A stretch of 43,366 nt of DNA, taken from Methylobacteriaceae bacterium (GTDB lineage: Bacteria; Pseudomonadota; Alphaproteobacteria; Rhizobiales; Beijerinckiaceae). Shown here piece after piece: positions 381 through 9,961 of this stretch. Each line of letters begins with the position of its first letter. Position 1 is the first letter of the stretch. Location of the stretch: assembly GCA_019244955.1 (NCBI GenBank), contig JAFASC010000051.1:1-43366 (forward strand), given 5' to 3'. Position numbers and translations under genes: made by a program. The notes under the pieces are model-generated. The model did no database searches, had not been told where the DNA came from, and saw nothing but the letters and a program-made list of their open reading frames with translations.

Positions 381-463
381 GAACCTTCTCCTCAGGCGGG
401 GTGCGGATTGGAAGTGGCGTGGAAGGTGCGATAATATGGCTGCGATGGGTGGAGATTGAGCCG

Positions 464-3400
464 ATGACCGGCTGGATGGCCGTTCTCGCGACGCTTGTCT
501 ATATCTGTGGGCTGTTTGCAGTGGCCCATTATGGCGACACGAGCGGCCGGCCGTTCCTTGCCGGGCGCGTGCGGCCGATCGTCTACGCGCTAGGCTTGTG
601 CATCTATTGCACCTCGTGGACCTTTTTTGGGTCCGTCGGCGTCGCCTCGTCGAGCGGCTATGATTTCCTGGCAATCTATATCGGGCCGCTTCTGGTGATC
701 GGGTTCGGCGGCCCGGCCCTGGCGCGCATCGTCCACCTCGCCAAAGGGCAGAACATCACCTCCGTCGCCGATTTCATCGCTGCCCGGTACGGGAAGGCGC
801 AGAGCGTCGCGGCGCTGGTAACCGTCATTTGCGTGTTCGGAACGGTCCCCTACATCGCTTTGCAGCTGAAGGCGATTTCCACCTCAATCGCCGCGGTCCT
901 CAGCTCGATCGAGACAGCGCATTACGTGCCCGGTTTTGTTTCGCAGAATCTCTTGGTCGGCGTTGCGGCGCTGCTGTCGGGGTTTGCCATGGCCTTTGGC
1001 ACGCGCCAAGTCGACGCGACCGAACACCAAGGCGGGCTGATGCTTGCCATCGCGACGGAGTCGATCGTCAAGCTGCTCGCCTTCATATTGGTGGGAGCGT
1101 TCGTCACCTGGGGTATCTTTAACGGCCTCGATGATCTGATCGGCCGCACGCAGGCCACGCTTGGCGAGCAGAATCCATTCATCAAACCGCCCGACCCGGT
1201 GAACTTCCTGACAATGACATTGCTTTCCGCGTCAGCGATCCTGCTGTTGCCCCGGCAATTTCACGTAACTGTCGTTGAAAATCGTGATGTGAACGACGTC
1301 AGAGCTGCGAGTCGGCTCTTCCCGCTCTACCTTATCGCCATCAACTTATTTGTAATCCCGCTCGCGATGGCTGGGCTGCTGGCATTTTCAGGCCGCGCAA
1401 TCGATCGGGACATGACGGTTCTCGCCCTGCCGCTGCAGTTCGACGCCGACCATATCGCCGTGCTGACGCTGATCGGCGGATTATCCGCGGCGACCGCAAT
1501 GGTGATCGTTGAATGCGTGGCACTGTCGACAATGATCTCCAACGATCTCGTCGTTCCGCTCTTCGTTCGGAGCGGACGCACGGGCGAGAGGGTTCGCTCA
1601 GGCGACATCGGCGCGAAAATCCTGATTGTGCGGCGGGTGGCGATCATCGCCATTCTGGCGCTTGGTTATTTATATCTCGTGCATGCGGAACAAGCCGCGC
1701 TCGCTTCCATCGGACTCGTGGCTTTCGCCTGCATTGCGCAGATCGCTCCGGTCTTCCTTGGCGGATTGCTTTGGCCGCGCGCAACCGGCCGCGGTGCCAT
1801 GGCTGGTCTGGTCGCCGGTACTGTAGTGTGGGCCTACACACTCCTGCTCCCGTCGTTCGATCCCGGATCATTTCCCTTCGGCGATGCAATCAGTAGAGGT
1901 CCGTTCGAGATTGCCTTTCTGCGGCCGACCGCATTGTTCGGCACCGAATTGCCGGTGCTGGTGCACGGAACGTTTTGGAGCTTGCTTGCAAACGTCGTCG
2001 CTTTCGTGACCTTCTCGCTCACCCGGCCCGCAACGCGGATCGAGCGCGTGCAGGCCGACTACTTCGTCGGAAAACGCACGCCCTCGACCACGCATCCGCT
2101 GCGTCTGTGGCGCGCCAGTGTCAGCAGCGGCGAACTCGAAGTGTTGGTGGCACGCTACCTCGGCGCCGAGCGCGCGCGAGAGGCGTTTGCCCAGTATCTG
2201 GGTCACCGCGGCTCGCCGGTTTCACCGGAGACGCCCGCCGACGTTCATCTCCTGCGTTTTGCCGAGCATCAGCTGGCTTCGGCGATTGGTGCGGCCTCGT
2301 CACGCTTGGTTCTCTCGGTGCTCTTGAAGCGCGGTAACGTTTCGCGTCACACAGCATTGCGTCTCGTCGACGACGCCTCTGCGGCGATTCTGTATAATCG
2401 CGATCTTCTTCAATATGCCCTCGACTTCGCACGTCAAGGCATCACGGTGTTCGATAGCGATCTGCGCCTCATCTGCTGGAATCGTGAATTCCGCGAGCTC
2501 GTAACTCTCCCCAATGACCTGATCCGCGTCGGTGTGACCGCGCGGGAAATCCTCGCCTTCAATGTCGAGCGAGGTCTTTACGGACCGGGTGATGCCGAGG
2601 CGCAGATCGCCGACCGGCTAAAGGCGCTCACGTCCGAAGACGAGCCGTCGCGTGTCAAACTTCATCCGTCAGGCGAAGTGATCGAAATCCGCTCGGCGCG
2701 AATGCCGGACGGAAGCTTGGTGACAACCTACACGGACGTAACGGCGCAGGTGGCCGCCGAGGAGTCGCTCGAGCAGCGGGTTGCCGAACGCACCGAAGAG
2801 CTGACGCGCGTCAATATGGAACTCGTGCGCGCAAAGGCGCAAGCCGAGGAGGCAAATAGCTCGAAGACCCGTTTCCTTGCGGCGGCGAGCCACGACCTTT
2901 TACAGCCGCTGAACGCCGCCCGCCTGTACGCCACCTCGTTGAGCGAGGGAGCGGGGACGAGCCGGAGCGCCGCTGTTGGCGAAATGCGCAAGCTCGCCCG
3001 CAATGTCGACCTATCGCTGGAGGCGGTCGAAGAAATCCTGACGACAATTCTCGAAATCTCACGCCTAGACGCCGGCGCGCTCAAGCCGGAGCTGCACGCT
3101 TTTGCCATCAACGATGTTTTGGAGCAGCTGCGCATCGAATTCGAGCCGATGGCGCGCGAGAAGCAGCTCGTCCTAAAGGTTCTTCCGTGCTCCGTCCCCA
3201 TCTGGTCGGATCGGCGCTTGCTGCGCAGGCTCTTGCGCAATCTCGTGTCGAATGCGGTCAAGTACACGTCCTCGCATGGCCGCGTTCTTGTCGGCGCGCG
3301 GCGTCTGGGCGAGGGCTTGCGCCTCGAGGTCTGGGATACCGGCGTTGGAATTCCGGAGGATCAGCAGACAATCGTCTTCCAGGAGTTCACGCGTCTCGAA

Positions 3401-3991
3401 TCCGCCCAGCAGACTGCAACGGGTCTGGGGCTCGGACTGTCGATCGTCGAGCGTCTCGCTCGCGTGCTGGATCACCCGGTTCGCCTGCGTTCGAATCCCG
3501 ATCGAGGCTCGGTTTTCTCCGTGGACATCCCAAGGCGCGCACAGGAGAGCGCCGTCGAGAAGATCAAATCCCCGCGGCGTGCCTCACGCAAAGAAGCGGC
3601 GATGGGCGGCATGGTGGTTGCCGCAATCGATAACGATCCGCGCATTCTCGAAGGCATGCAGGGTCTGCTGAAGCAATGGCAATGTACGTCTGTGTGCGCC
3701 AAGAGCAGCGATGAAGCCGCGCTGCTGCTCGATGAGATCGGGCTCCAGCCGGATGTTGTTCTCGCGGACTATCATCTTGGCGATGCGGAGAATGGGCTCG
3801 AGGCGATTGTTCGGTTACGCGCCACCTATGGCAGCGATCTGCCGGGAGTACTGATTACAGCCGATCGCACCCCAGAGGTGCGGGACCGCGCCGCCGAGGA
3901 GAACGTCTACGTTTTGCACAAGCCGGTGAAACCTGCGTCGCTACGCGCTCTCCTCTCACAGGCTCGCGTGGCGAGCACCGCGGCTGAATAG
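464..3991 (+). CDS. Hybrid sensor histidine kinase: SSS (solute:Na+ symporter-like) N-terminus, PAS, HisKA/HATPase, C-terminal receiver
   Basis: Multi-TM SSS-like N-terminus; PAS ([25 protein letters not shown]); H-box [18 protein letters not shown] boxes [10 protein letters not shown] and [12 protein letters not shown]; receiver with DND and LADYHLG. ATG at 464 is likelier than the ORF start at 401. Confidence 0.9.
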
Positions 3992-4615
3992 TCAGGCGGC
4001 GGGCGAGAACGCTTTGCGTCCGGAGCGCAGTGCGTCATCGAGCAATTCGAGGCGGTCCTGGCCCCAGAAAAGCTCGCCGTCGAGGACGTAAGTCGGTGAG
4101 CCGAACGCGCCGGCGGCGAGCGCCTCGGCGATATTGGCTTGGTACGCCGCATCGGTCTGCGGACTGTGCGCCGATTGCAAAATGGACTGCGCAGCATGAC
4201 CGCACGCCGCGAGAATCTCGGCCAACACGCTTTCGTCGGCGCAATTCCGCTCTTCTTCGAAGACGGCTTTGAACACGCTACCAATGTAGGAGGCTGCATC
4301 CCTGCCGCTTTGCACGACAGCAATAACGCTGCGATCGGCCAGCGCGCAGTCGAATGGCCAGTACTTCGGATGCAGATTGAAATTCATGCCACGCTTTTCA
4401 CGCCAGCGCTGCAGCTCGAGCATGCGATAACGCTGTCGCGCCGGAGCGCGCTTGCCTAATGGCAGACCGCCCGTCTGCGGAAAGACCTCGGCGAGATTGA
4501 CCGGCTTCCAATCGATCGTCACGCCATGCTCGCGCGCGATCCCGAGGAAGAGCTCATGGCCGATATAGGCCCAGGGACTGACCGTGGTGAAATAACAGGT
4601 GATGCCGCGCGCCAT
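3992..4615 (-). CDS. 2-hydroxychromene-2-carboxylate isomerase family (DsbA-like thioredoxin fold)
   Basis: YFTTVSPWAYIGHELF...WKPVNLAEVFPQTGGLPLGKRAPARQRYRMLELQRW...FGSPTYVLDGELFWGQDRLELL. Confidence 0.88.
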   Translation of the reverse strand: MARGITCYFTTVSPWAYIGHELFLGIAREHGVTIDWKPVNLAEVFPQTGGLPLGKRAPARQRYRMLELQRWREKRGMNFNLHPKYWPFDCALADRSVIAVVQSGRDAASYIGSVFKAVFEEERNCADESVLAEILAACGHAAQSILQSAHSPQTDAAYQANIAEALAAGAFGSPTYVLDGELFWGQDRLELLDDALRSGRKAFSPAA

Positions 4616-4668
4616 GTAACCTCCCGGTTTGGCCGGGAAATTACATGGATTTTCTCAGTGCGCCAGAG

Positions 4669-6882
4669 CTACGCCGCCTTCGCCTGCGCGGCGGCACGGC
4701 CGTAGAAGGTCTCGTGCGATTTCGCCATGTCTATGAGCAGCCCGGGCGGCGAGAAGCGATCGCCGTACTTTTTCGCGAGCTTGTCGCAGAGCAGGACGAA
4801 ATTGCCGACGCCCATACCATCGATATAGCTCAGCGTGCCGCCCGTATAAGGCGCAAAGCCGAAGCCGAGAATCGAGCCGACGTCGGCCTCGCGCGGATCG
4901 GTGACGACACCTTCGGCAAACGTACGCGCCGCCTCCACCGCCTGCACGACCAGGAAACGTTGCTTTAGTTCCTCGATGTCGATCGTCTCAGGGTCGAGCT
5001 TGCGTTCTGCAAGATCCGCGAGGCCCGGCCACAGGCGCTTTTGGCCCTGCCCCTTTTCCGGATAATCGTAGAAGCCCTTGCCGTTCTTGCGGCCGTTGCG
5101 GCCTTTCTCGACGACGAGGGTGCGCAGCACTTTCTCCTGCGCCGGATCGACCGCGCCTTGGCCCAAGTCTTTCTTGGTTGCCTCGACAATTTTCCAGCCG
5201 AGATCGACGCCGACTTCGTCGTTGAGCGCTAGCGGGCCAACCGGCATGCCGGCCATTTTGGCGGCGTTCTCGATCATCGCCGCGGGAACGCCTTCCACGA
5301 GCATCAGATGTGCCTCGCGAATGTAATTGCCGACGCAGCGATTGGCGTAAAAACCGCGGGTGTCGTTGACGACAATTGGAGTCTTCTTGATCGCGCGCAC
5401 GTAATCGAGTGCGGTCGCAAGTGCCCGGTCGCCCGTGCCTTTGCCCTTGATGATCTCGACGAGCATCATCCTCTCGACCGGCGAGAAGAAATGGATGCCG
5501 ATGAAATTTTCCGGACGCGGGTGGTTCTCGGAAAGCGAGGTGATCGGCAGTGTCGATGTGTTCGAGGCGAATACCACATTGGGGCCGACTACCGCTTCCG
5601 CCTTCTTAGTCGCCTCGGCCTTGACGCCGCGATCCTCGAATACTGCCTCGATAACGAGATCGCAGCCCTTCAGCGCGGTGTAATCTTCGGTCGCGTTGAT
5701 GCGGCCGAGCAGCGCGTCACGATCGGCCGACTTGGCGCGACCCTTCATGATCTGGCTGGAGATGAGCTTGTTCGAATATTCCTTGCCCTTGTCGGCACTC
5801 GCTTGATCCCGGTCGATCAGGACTACGTCCATCCCTGCCTGCGCCGTGACATAAGCGATGCCCGCGCCCATGAAGCCCGCGCCGATGACGCCGATCTTGC
5901 GCAGGTTCGTTGGCGGCACGTTCTTCGGCCGGCGCGCGCCCTTATTGAGCTCCCCCATCGATAGGAAGAGGGAGCGGATCATGGCCGCGGCTTCCGGCGA
6001 GCGCAGAATTTTTGCAAACCAGCGCGCCTCGACCTTCAGTGCCTGATCCATCGGCAGCTGCAGACCCTCGAACACGCAGTGCAGGATCGCTTTCGCCGCG
6101 GGGTAATTGTCCATTGTCTCGCGACGGTAGAGCGCGTTCGCGGCAGGCCACGTCATCATGCCCGTTGGCGAGAACACTTTGCCGGATGGGAGCTTGAAAT
6201 TCTTCTCGTCCCACGGCGCTACGCCTTTGCCGCCAGCCTTGATCCATTCTTTGGCTTTCGCCACTATGTCGCCCGCCGGCGCGACGGCGTGGACTAGGTT
6301 CATCTTCAATGCCGCCGCGGGCCTGATCTGCTCACCCTTGAACAGCATCTGCAGGGCGTCGCCCGTCTGCATGAGACGCGGGATGCGTTGCGTACCGCCG
6401 GCGCCGGGGAAAAGGCCGACCTTGATTTCCGGCAGGCCGACGCGCGCCTTCTCCGAATCCGACATGACGCGATAATGGCAGGCGAGCGTGAGCTCGAAAC
6501 CGCCGCCGAGACACGTGCCGTTGATCGCCGCCGCCCACGGCTTGCCTGACGTCTCGAGCTTGCGATAGGTGCGCGAAAGCGCACCGGCATTGTCGACGAA
6601 AAGTCGCATCGCCGCTTCTTCGCCGCGCTCTTTCAGCGCTTTGGCGTAATCGCTCGCGCCCTTCTCCAGCATGGTCAGATCGGCGCCGGCGGAGAACGTG
6701 TCCTTGCCGGACGTGACGACGCAGCCTTTGATTGACGCGTCAGACGCGACCTTGTCGATCACCTCGCCGAGTTCGGCGATAACATCCGGGTTGATGACAT
6801 TCATGGCGCGCCCCGCCATGTCCCAGGTCAGAAGCGCGATGCCATCGGAATCGGTTTCGAAGCGGAAGTTTTTCAGGTTCAT
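4669..6882 (-). CDS. fadJ: Bifunctional enoyl-CoA hydratase / 3-hydroxyacyl-CoA dehydrogenase (FadJ/FadB-type)
   Basis: From MNLKNFRFETDSDGIALLTWD: crotonase region (GGGFELTLACHYRV, LPEIKVGLFPGAGGTQR) fused to HAD region (IGVIGAGFMGAGIAYVTAQAG, FASNTSTLPITSL, GIHFFSPVERMMLVEII). Confidence 0.93.
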   Translation of the reverse strand: MNLKNFRFETDSDGIALLTWDMAGRAMNVINPDVIAELGEVIDKVASDASIKGCVVTSGKDTFSAGADLTMLEKGASDYAKALKERGEEAAMRLFVDNAGALSRTYRKLETSGKPWAAAINGTCLGGGFELTLACHYRVMSDSEKARVGLPEIKVGLFPGAGGTQRIPRLMQTGDALQMLFKGEQIRPAAALKMNLVHAVAPAGDIVAKAKEWIKAGGKGVAPWDEKNFKLPSGKVFSPTGMMTWPAANALYRRETMDNYPAAKAILHCVFEGLQLPMDQALKVEARWFAKILRSPEAAAMIRSLFLSMGELNKGARRPKNVPPTNLRKIGVIGAGFMGAGIAYVTAQAGMDVVLIDRDQASADKGKEYSNKLISSQIMKGRAKSADRDALLGRINATEDYTALKGCDLVIEAVFEDRGVKAEATKKAEAVVGPNVVFASNTSTLPITSLSENHPRPENFIGIHFFSPVERMMLVEIIKGKGTGDRALATALDYVRAIKKTPIVVNDTRGFYANRCVGNYIREAHLMLVEGVPAAMIENAAKMAGMPVGPLALNDEVGVDLGWKIVEATKKDLGQGAVDPAQEKVLRTLVVEKGRNGRKNGKGFYDYPEKGQGQKRLWPGLADLAERKLDPETIDIEELKQRFLVVQAVEAARTFAEGVVTDPREADVGSILGFGFAPYTGGTLSYIDGMGVGNFVLLCDKLAKKYGDRFSPPGLLIDMAKSHETFYGRAAAQAKAA

Positions 6883-6898
6883 CACTCGCTCCCGCTGC

Positions 6899-8107
<1,209 letters not shown>

Positions 8108-8167
8108 GGAGGACCTCCAAAAATTGTCATGAATGCGCACGCCGCCCATGCGCGATGCGTTTCGACT

Positions 8168-9961
8168 TCAGAACATTTCCGCGGGGACTGACATCATGGT
8201 GTCCGCGCCGGACGTGATCCGCGCCAGACGCACGCTGCTTTCGGGCAGCATGCGTTCCATGAAAAACTTGCCTGTGAGCAGCTTCGCGTCCATCTTCTCC
8301 GAGACACCGTTGCCGGCCGACCTCTTGGCGATCGCGGTCTTGGCGATCTGCGCCCACATGTAAGCAAGCGCCACCAATCCGAACAGGTGCATATAGTCGT
8401 AAGAGCCGGCGCCGGCATTGTCGGGTTTCGCCATGCCGTTCTGCATAAACCACATGGTCGCCTGCTGGAGGTGACCAGTGGCATTCTGCAGTGGCGCGAT
8501 GAACGGTTTCAGCGCCTCGTCGTTTTCGTTCTCCTTGGCGAACTGCGTGACCTCGTTGAAGAACGTCATGATGGCGCGTCCGCCGTCTTTCGGCAGCTTG
8601 CGGCCGACAAGGTCGAGCGCCTGGATGCCGTTCGCTCCCTCGTAAATCATGGCGATGCGGGCGTCGCGGACGAACTGTTCCATGCCCCATTCGCCGACAT
8701 ACCCGTGGCCGCCGAGCACCTGCTGGGCTTTCACGGTATTGTCGAACCCGACGTCCGTGAGCACGCCTTTCAGAACCGGCGTCATCAGACCAAGGTAATC
8801 TTCCGCCGCAGCATGCGCCTTCGGATCGTCGGAATGGTGTCCGATGTCGCTGCGCATAGCGGTCCATAGAACAAGCGCCCGCGCCGCTTCGTTGAACGCC
8901 TTGATCTCGAGGAGATTGCGCCGGATGTCCGGGTGCACGATGATCGGGTCGGCCGGCTTATCCGGGTTCTTCACGCCGGAAATCGAGCGGCCTTGCAGAC
9001 GATCCTTCGCGTAGGCCGCCGCGTTCTGGTAGGCGACTTCGGATTGGGCCAGACCCTGCACGGACACGCCGAGCCGGGCGTGGTTCATCATTACGAACAT
9101 CGCGTTGAGGCCGCGATTGGCTTCGCCGAGCAGATAGCCCTTGGCGCCGTCATAGTTCATCACGCAGGTCGAATTGCCGTGAATGCCCATCTTGTGTTCG
9201 ATTGAGCCGCAGGTGACGCCGTTCGGTTGGGCGAGCGAGCCGTCAGGATTGACGTTCACCTTCGGCACGATGAACAGCGAGATGCCCTTCACTCCGGCGG
9301 GCGCGCCTTCGATGCGCGCCAGCACGAGATGGATGATGTTCTCGGTGAGATCGTGCTCGCCGGCCGAGATGAAGATTTTCTGCCCGGTGATCGAATAAGA
9401 GCCGTCGTCATTTGGGACGGCCTTTGTCTTCAGTAGACCCAGATCAGTGCCGCAATGCGGCTCGGTCAAATTCATCGTGCCCGCCCAGCGCCCCTCCGTC
9501 ATCTTCGGCGCAAAGAGCTGCTTCTGCTCGTCGCTGCCATGGACCAGCAGCGCCGCGAGCGCGCCCGAGGTAAGGCCCGGATACATGCCGAAGGCCATGT
9601 TGGCGGAGGCGACGAACTCGTTCACCGCAATCGCCAGCGTGTGCGGCAGGCCTTGGCCGCCGTATTCCGGATCGACCGGCAGACCGATCCAGCCACCCTC
9701 GGCATACGCCTTGAATGCTTCCTTGAAACCTTTCGGTGTGGTGACGTCCCGCTCGCTCTGCCGCACGCAGCCCTCCCGGTCGCCCGAGAGGTTCAGCGGC
9801 TGCAGCACCTCCTCACACAGTTTTGCCGCCTCCCCGAGGATCGCCTCGATCACGTCGGGTGTGGCCTCCGCAAAACTCGGAAGGTTGTTGTAGCGATCGA
9901 TCTGGAAGACATCGCGCAGGAGGAACAGCACGTCCTCCACCGGCGCTTTGTAGCTCGGCAT
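8168..9961 (-). CDS. Acyl-CoA dehydrogenase (approx. 600-aa FadE-like)
   Basis: TMNLTEPHCGTDLGLLKTKA, QKIFISAGEHDL, QQVLGGHGYVGEWGMEQFVRDARIAMIYEGANGIQALDL. Confidence 0.93.
   Translation of the reverse strand: MPSYKAPVEDVLFLLRDVFQIDRYNNLPSFAEATPDVIEAILGEAAKLCEEVLQPLNLSGDREGCVRQSERDVTTPKGFKEAFKAYAEGGWIGLPVDPEYGGQGLPHTLAIAVNEFVASANMAFGMYPGLTSGALAALLVHGSDEQKQLFAPKMTEGRWAGTMNLTEPHCGTDLGLLKTKAVPNDDGSYSITGQKIFISAGEHDLTENIIHLVLARIEGAPAGVKGISLFIVPKVNVNPDGSLAQPNGVTCGSIEHKMGIHGNSTCVMNYDGAKGYLLGEANRGLNAMFVMMNHARLGVSVQGLAQSEVAYQNAAAYAKDRLQGRSISGVKNPDKPADPIIVHPDIRRNLLEIKAFNEAARALVLWTAMRSDIGHHSDDPKAHAAAEDYLGLMTPVLKGVLTDVGFDNTVKAQQVLGGHGYVGEWGMEQFVRDARIAMIYEGANGIQALDLVGRKLPKDGGRAIMTFFNEVTQFAKENENDEALKPFIAPLQNATGHLQQATMWFMQNGMAKPDNAGAGSYDYMHLFGLVALAYMWAQIAKTAIAKRSAGNGVSEKMDAKLLTGKFFMERMLPESSVRLARITSGADTMMSVPAEMF

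Follow-up and report, generated by a model that had tools for sequence, protein, structure and literature searches.

The window analysed here is a stretch of 43,366 nt of contig JAFASC010000051.1, from the assembly GCA_019244955.1 of an uncultured alphaproteobacterium, Methylobacteriaceae bacterium. The minus strand of this window carries a fatty-acid oxidation cluster in the order fadE-fadA-fadJ-isomerase, in which the isomerase gene is the last. The acyl-CoA-dehydrogenase-like ORF (fadE-like, 8168..9961), which was named from its sequence without a profile scan, is likely the first gene of the cluster, and is followed on the same strand by the acetyl-CoA acyltransferase gene (fadA-like, thiolase, 6899..8149), the gene of a fadJ-like alpha subunit of the fatty-acid oxidation complex (4669..6882, start placed at MNLKNF) and the gene of a 207-aa HCCA-isomerase-like protein of DSBA fold (3992..4615). 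The spacer between the thiolase gene and fadJ (6883-6898) has about 16 nt here, and about 126 unaligned bases stand at this place in the sister species (G001:C53:322-447). The isomerase gene is intact in both species of the genus, and its dN/dS of about 0.12 between them indicates purifying selection. Its start codon at 4615 was fixed because homologues have their first residue at this position. None of the NCBIfam models matched the protein, so its enzyme name is provisional; the N-terminal motif SPWAYIG is one that we take to fit HCCA isomerases. The literature search found nothing relevant on HCCA isomerases in beta-oxidation operons. The isomerase gene is convergent with the gene of a large NahK/ErcS-like hybrid histidine kinase (plus strand, 401-3991), with 0 bases between the two stop codons (3989-3994), and the C-terminal sequence of the kinase beside the isomerase end was also found in related genera (L003, L005, L018, L022 and L030).

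On the minus strand, the TAG stop codon of fadJ (4671-4669) is followed by a spacer of 20 nt (4649..4668; 24 nt in the sister species) and then by CCATGTAATTTCCCGG-CCAAA-CCGGGAGGTTACATGG, which folds into an RNA hairpin of 16 uninterrupted base pairs (4612..4648, -25.6 kcal/mol). The 5' arm, CCATGTAATTTCCCGG (4633..4648), is complementary to the Shine-Dalgarno (SD) sequence and start of the isomerase gene, and the loop CCAAA lies at 4628..4632. Every base of the SD sequence GGGAGG (4620..4625) and of the start codon AUG (4613..4615) is paired. The initial annotation had described a continuous 15-bp hairpin over the SD and AUG, 21 nt after the fadJ stop; its sequence, coordinates and pairing were right, the stem really has 16 pairs, and the distance of 21 nt holds for the 15-bp stem and becomes 20 nt for the 16-bp stem. 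The surrounding stretch of 75 nt folds to -31.0 kcal/mol as compared to a mean of -20.0 kcal/mol for shuffled sequences (z = -3.57), and 0 shuffles were as good. It had also been claimed that two U.G wobbles fit the transcribed RNA, and indeed these become C/A mismatches on the opposite strand, which folds to -21.9 vs -25.6 kcal/mol. In both species the transcribed strand is the one that folds better.

Several other identities of this element were considered and rejected. It is not an intrinsic terminator of either strand, because the terminator scan of 4560-4760 was empty and no U-tract is found 3' of the stem, which is followed by CGCGCGGC. No Rfam family matched within 4300-5000 even at E up to 5. 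A dispersed palindromic repeat (REP-like) was rejected since the hairpin is single-copy in the whole assembly, and no approximate copy of the 5' arm at other places in the two genus genomes forms such a hairpin at a start. The AUG-UAA start-stop within the 5' arm follows from the complementarity to UUACAU, and it has no conserved SD.

The genome background was taken from a 0.76 Mb sample of this genome with 685 predicted starts, which come from a simple script so that some of them will be wrong. On both strands of the sample, stems of at least 16 pairs (G.U allowed) amounted to 15 stem-and-loop entries, nested versions included, and to about 6 in a Markov-shuffled copy. By stem energy alone the hairpin ranks 10th among 58 places. 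The cost of opening the region from -13 to +3 is 22.4 kcal/mol at the isomerase start, which is rank 2 of the 685 starts (median 8.5 kcal/mol), and among the sampled starts with a strong SD it is the most occluded. The cost of opening the SD and AUG is 22.3 kcal/mol here and 20.8 kcal/mol in the sister species, and the stem lowers the computed accessibility of the start. The hairpin stands out by lying on a strong SD and start and by being conserved in the sister species. As a rough estimate, such coincidences are expected by chance about 0.2 times per genome and about 0.002 times in the 43-kb window, and conservation is therefore needed to decide.

The comparison within the genus covered two genomes, the second being that of the sister species (G001, record JAFAVH010000235), a Methylobacteriaceae MAG. 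The DNA of the two species is about 82% identical in this region, and the proteins are 79% (isomerase) and 94% (fadJ, over 419 aa) identical; the isomerase is far less conserved than fadJ despite its low dN/dS. In the sister species the spacer reads ...GAAAAAATCCATGTAATTTCCCGACCAAAGGGGAGGTTACATGG, and the outer 14 pairs of the stem are unchanged. The first 15 bases of the 5' arm are the same, inside an identical run of 20 nt (4634-4653). All spacer differences fall in the upstream flank or at the apex, where two substitutions and one deletion around the loop remove two pairs and leave the SD-AUG part untouched. Because identical runs of 20 bases are common in the coding DNA of both species, conservation was measured against fourfold-degenerate sites and not by run length. 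These sites are 52-60% identical in the neighbouring genes, and of 1038 windows with 14 such sites in a row, none was fully conserved. The SD and AUG constrain the 3' arm in any case. Since the 5' arm codes for nothing on the minus strand, its identity is best attributed to selection for pairing, and on this sequence comparison the non-coding arm appears to be under selection. The two genomes, with their identical 14-bp stem, show no compensatory change, and there is little room for covariation in most of the stem; the pairs that the SD and AUG leave unconstrained are those of GUAA with UUAC. The initial annotation had looked to relatives for conserved pairing, and 14 pairs are kept in the sister species, the other genome of the genus.

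We favour, with moderate confidence, the reading that the hairpin acts in cis to block isomerase translation constitutively on the polycistronic fad mRNA, and that the isomerase would be made from RNA without the 5' arm. The translational gate claimed in the initial annotation is supported, as far as the modelling goes, by the depth of burial, the strand preference and the conservation of the 5' arm. The 5' arm, being transcribed just ahead of the SD and AUG, would fold onto both at once, and ribosomes would thereby be kept from starting the isomerase on the fadE-fadA-fadJ-isomerase mRNA. The ribosomes of fadJ would halt 20-24 nt before the stem and leave it folded. We infer translational repression in the cell from this arrangement, and its purpose may be the uncoupling of the isomerase from the beta-oxidation genes. 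The isomerase is probably silent on the shared mRNA and would need another route to be read, since purifying selection on the gene (dN/dS 0.12) means that it must be translated somehow. The protein would mainly come from RNA that starts in or after the 5' arm, or that is cut within the stem; either internal initiation or cleavage may be the source of such RNA. For an RNA starting in the loop, the predicted opening cost drops from 22.3 to 8.5 kcal/mol, the genome median. The consensus scan of sigma-70 type gave no promoter-like site near the hairpin. The hairpin is best assigned, on these models, to the general kind of SD- and start-sequestering hairpins, and to this general kind only because a demonstrated inner promoter is missing. 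If so, this would be a clear case in which the last gene of an operon is apparently turned off at translation independently of the preceding genes, through a small and testable element, and co-transcription with the fad genes need not imply co-expression.

The junction between fadJ and the isomerase gene differs in other genera and is not shared with the genus pair. In several relatives the two genes are 0-44 nt apart without a comparable structure, which speaks against the translational block. On the other side, in L025, a relative of another family, fadJ and the isomerase gene are directly separated by a strong intrinsic terminator (L025 2228-2255), and in two species of one genus (L224 and L226) the gap between the two genes holds a strong GC-rich hairpin with 13 pairs, which lies upstream of the SD and leaves it uncovered. 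The terminator scan flagged the L224 hairpin on the opposite strand only and left the L226 hairpin unflagged. The separation of the isomerase from fadJ is not general among the relatives. Since hairpins or terminators sit at the same junction in a few of them, the comparison suggests that this separation arose more than once.

A two-transcript switch of the T4 late-gene type is an unlikely reading that still deserves some weight. A promoter overlapping the 5' arm would start RNA in the loop and free the SD and AUG, so that the isomerase would be made only when this promoter is active and the read-through fad mRNA would be blocked. The ordinary opening cost of the loop-started RNA (8.5 vs 22.3 kcal/mol) fits this reading, as do a TGTAAT in the 5' arm that is spaced to put the start in the loop and a conserved block that extends past the paired bases by 5 nt (AAAAT) on the upstream side. 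Hairpins that hide the ribosome-binding site (RBS) have been described for I-TevI, soc, e and other genes of T4 (PMC2988022). However, the sigma-70-type consensus scan gives no promoter-like site, the TGTAAT does not have the A at position 2 that is key to a -10 box, no good -35 lies at 16-18 nt, and the conserved TTTCCCG is better explained by pairing. In its broader form, a chromosomal T4-type switch in a beta-oxidation operon, with a gene that would be silent on the read-through mRNA and active only on RNA begun or cut inside the hairpin, is a similarly doubtful proposition.

We also regard as distinctly unlikely that the hairpin is an intercistronic stability element, which would mainly keep exonucleases off the 3' end of the fadEAJ mRNA or be cut by RNase III, so that more FadJ would be made than isomerase, with the burial of the SD as a side effect or a second use. 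In both species the stem lies outside the footprint of the ribosome that ends fadJ, and unrelated hairpins occur at the same place in relatives, as expected for such an element. But a protective stem need not match exactly the SD and AUG, and conservation here falls exactly on the part that faces them while the apex decays.

The initial annotation had further proposed that translation of the isomerase depends on upstream ribosomes; in such coupling the isomerase would be read only if the fadJ ribosomes opened the hairpin or restarted after their stop. The two genes are neighbours on one strand, and an SD buried behind the upstream gene is the classical arrangement for such translational coupling. 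A ribosome resting on a stop codon covers roughly 12 nt beyond it. The stem begins 20 nt past the fadJ stop in this genome and 24 nt past it in the sister species, several nt outside the reach of the terminating ribosome, and would thus stay folded; the isomerase start, 53-56 nt downstream of the stop, is far for reinitiation. Coupling is disfavoured by these distances, and we hold it to be improbable.

That the inverted repeat CCATGTAA...TTACATGG is a DNA operator bound by a regulator is highly improbable: its perfect 8-bp half sites are conserved in both species, but their spacing differs by one base, the C/A mismatches of the other strand are retained and the motif occurs nowhere else in the 43-kb window. 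Its absence near the first gene of the cluster led us to reject an operator common to the operon promoter. A chance stem without function is barely credible, since although long stems with G.U pairs are not rare at the 63% GC of this genome, this one coincides with a strong SD and start and its non-coding arm is conserved at near-saturated divergence. As to the RNA thermometer of the initial annotation, in which warming would melt the stem and free the SD, the UUU opposite the SD and the two U.G wobbles point that way, but we leave it next to no chance and rejected it, because the stem has no bulges or mismatches, no Rfam family matched at E up to 5, and the temperature scan showed the SD closed far past plausible growth temperatures (0.4% unpaired at 45 C, about 1% at 55 C and 12% at 80 C, where it is still about 88% paired here and 85% in the sister species), with occlusion predicted to persist above 80 C. 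For a ligand or protein switch, also suggested there, there is no positive evidence: Rfam gave no match at E up to 5, and a non-systematic look noticed no alternative fold.

Several known systems share features with this hairpin. Like fourU and ROSE thermometers, it has U residues opposite the SD in the covering stem; those elements open at about 20-45 C, whereas the hairpin here is predicted to be closed above 80 C and has no bulges. Coupled operon genes also have a downstream SD buried within the operon, but a ribosome terminating on fadJ would not reach the stem here. Stabilising hairpins between the cistrons of operons, such as puf in Rhodobacter, likewise place a strong stem right behind an operon gene; the difference is that the stem here is exactly complementary to the SD and start of the next gene. 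The IS10 transposase gene is protected from read-through because transcripts entering from outside fold into a stem that covers the SD, which those of the inner promoter do not. The present hairpin is likewise predicted to cover the SD on RNA coming from upstream, but no mobile element is involved and the sigma-70-type consensus scan found no inner promoter. In T4-like phages, the RBS of late genes and of homing endonuclease genes (I-TevI, segB, mobE, soc and e) is concealed by hairpins on read-through RNA, and the late transcripts of I-TevI begin so that too little sequence remains to form the hairpin (PMC2988022). T4 has a late promoter at the hairpin, whereas none was found here by the sigma-70-type consensus scan, and the gene here is a cellular metabolic one, neither phage nor mobile. 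These T4 hairpins are the closest analogue, as in both cases the SD is concealed by a stable stem on read-through RNA from the genes before it, and a transcript without the 5' arm would be open to translation.
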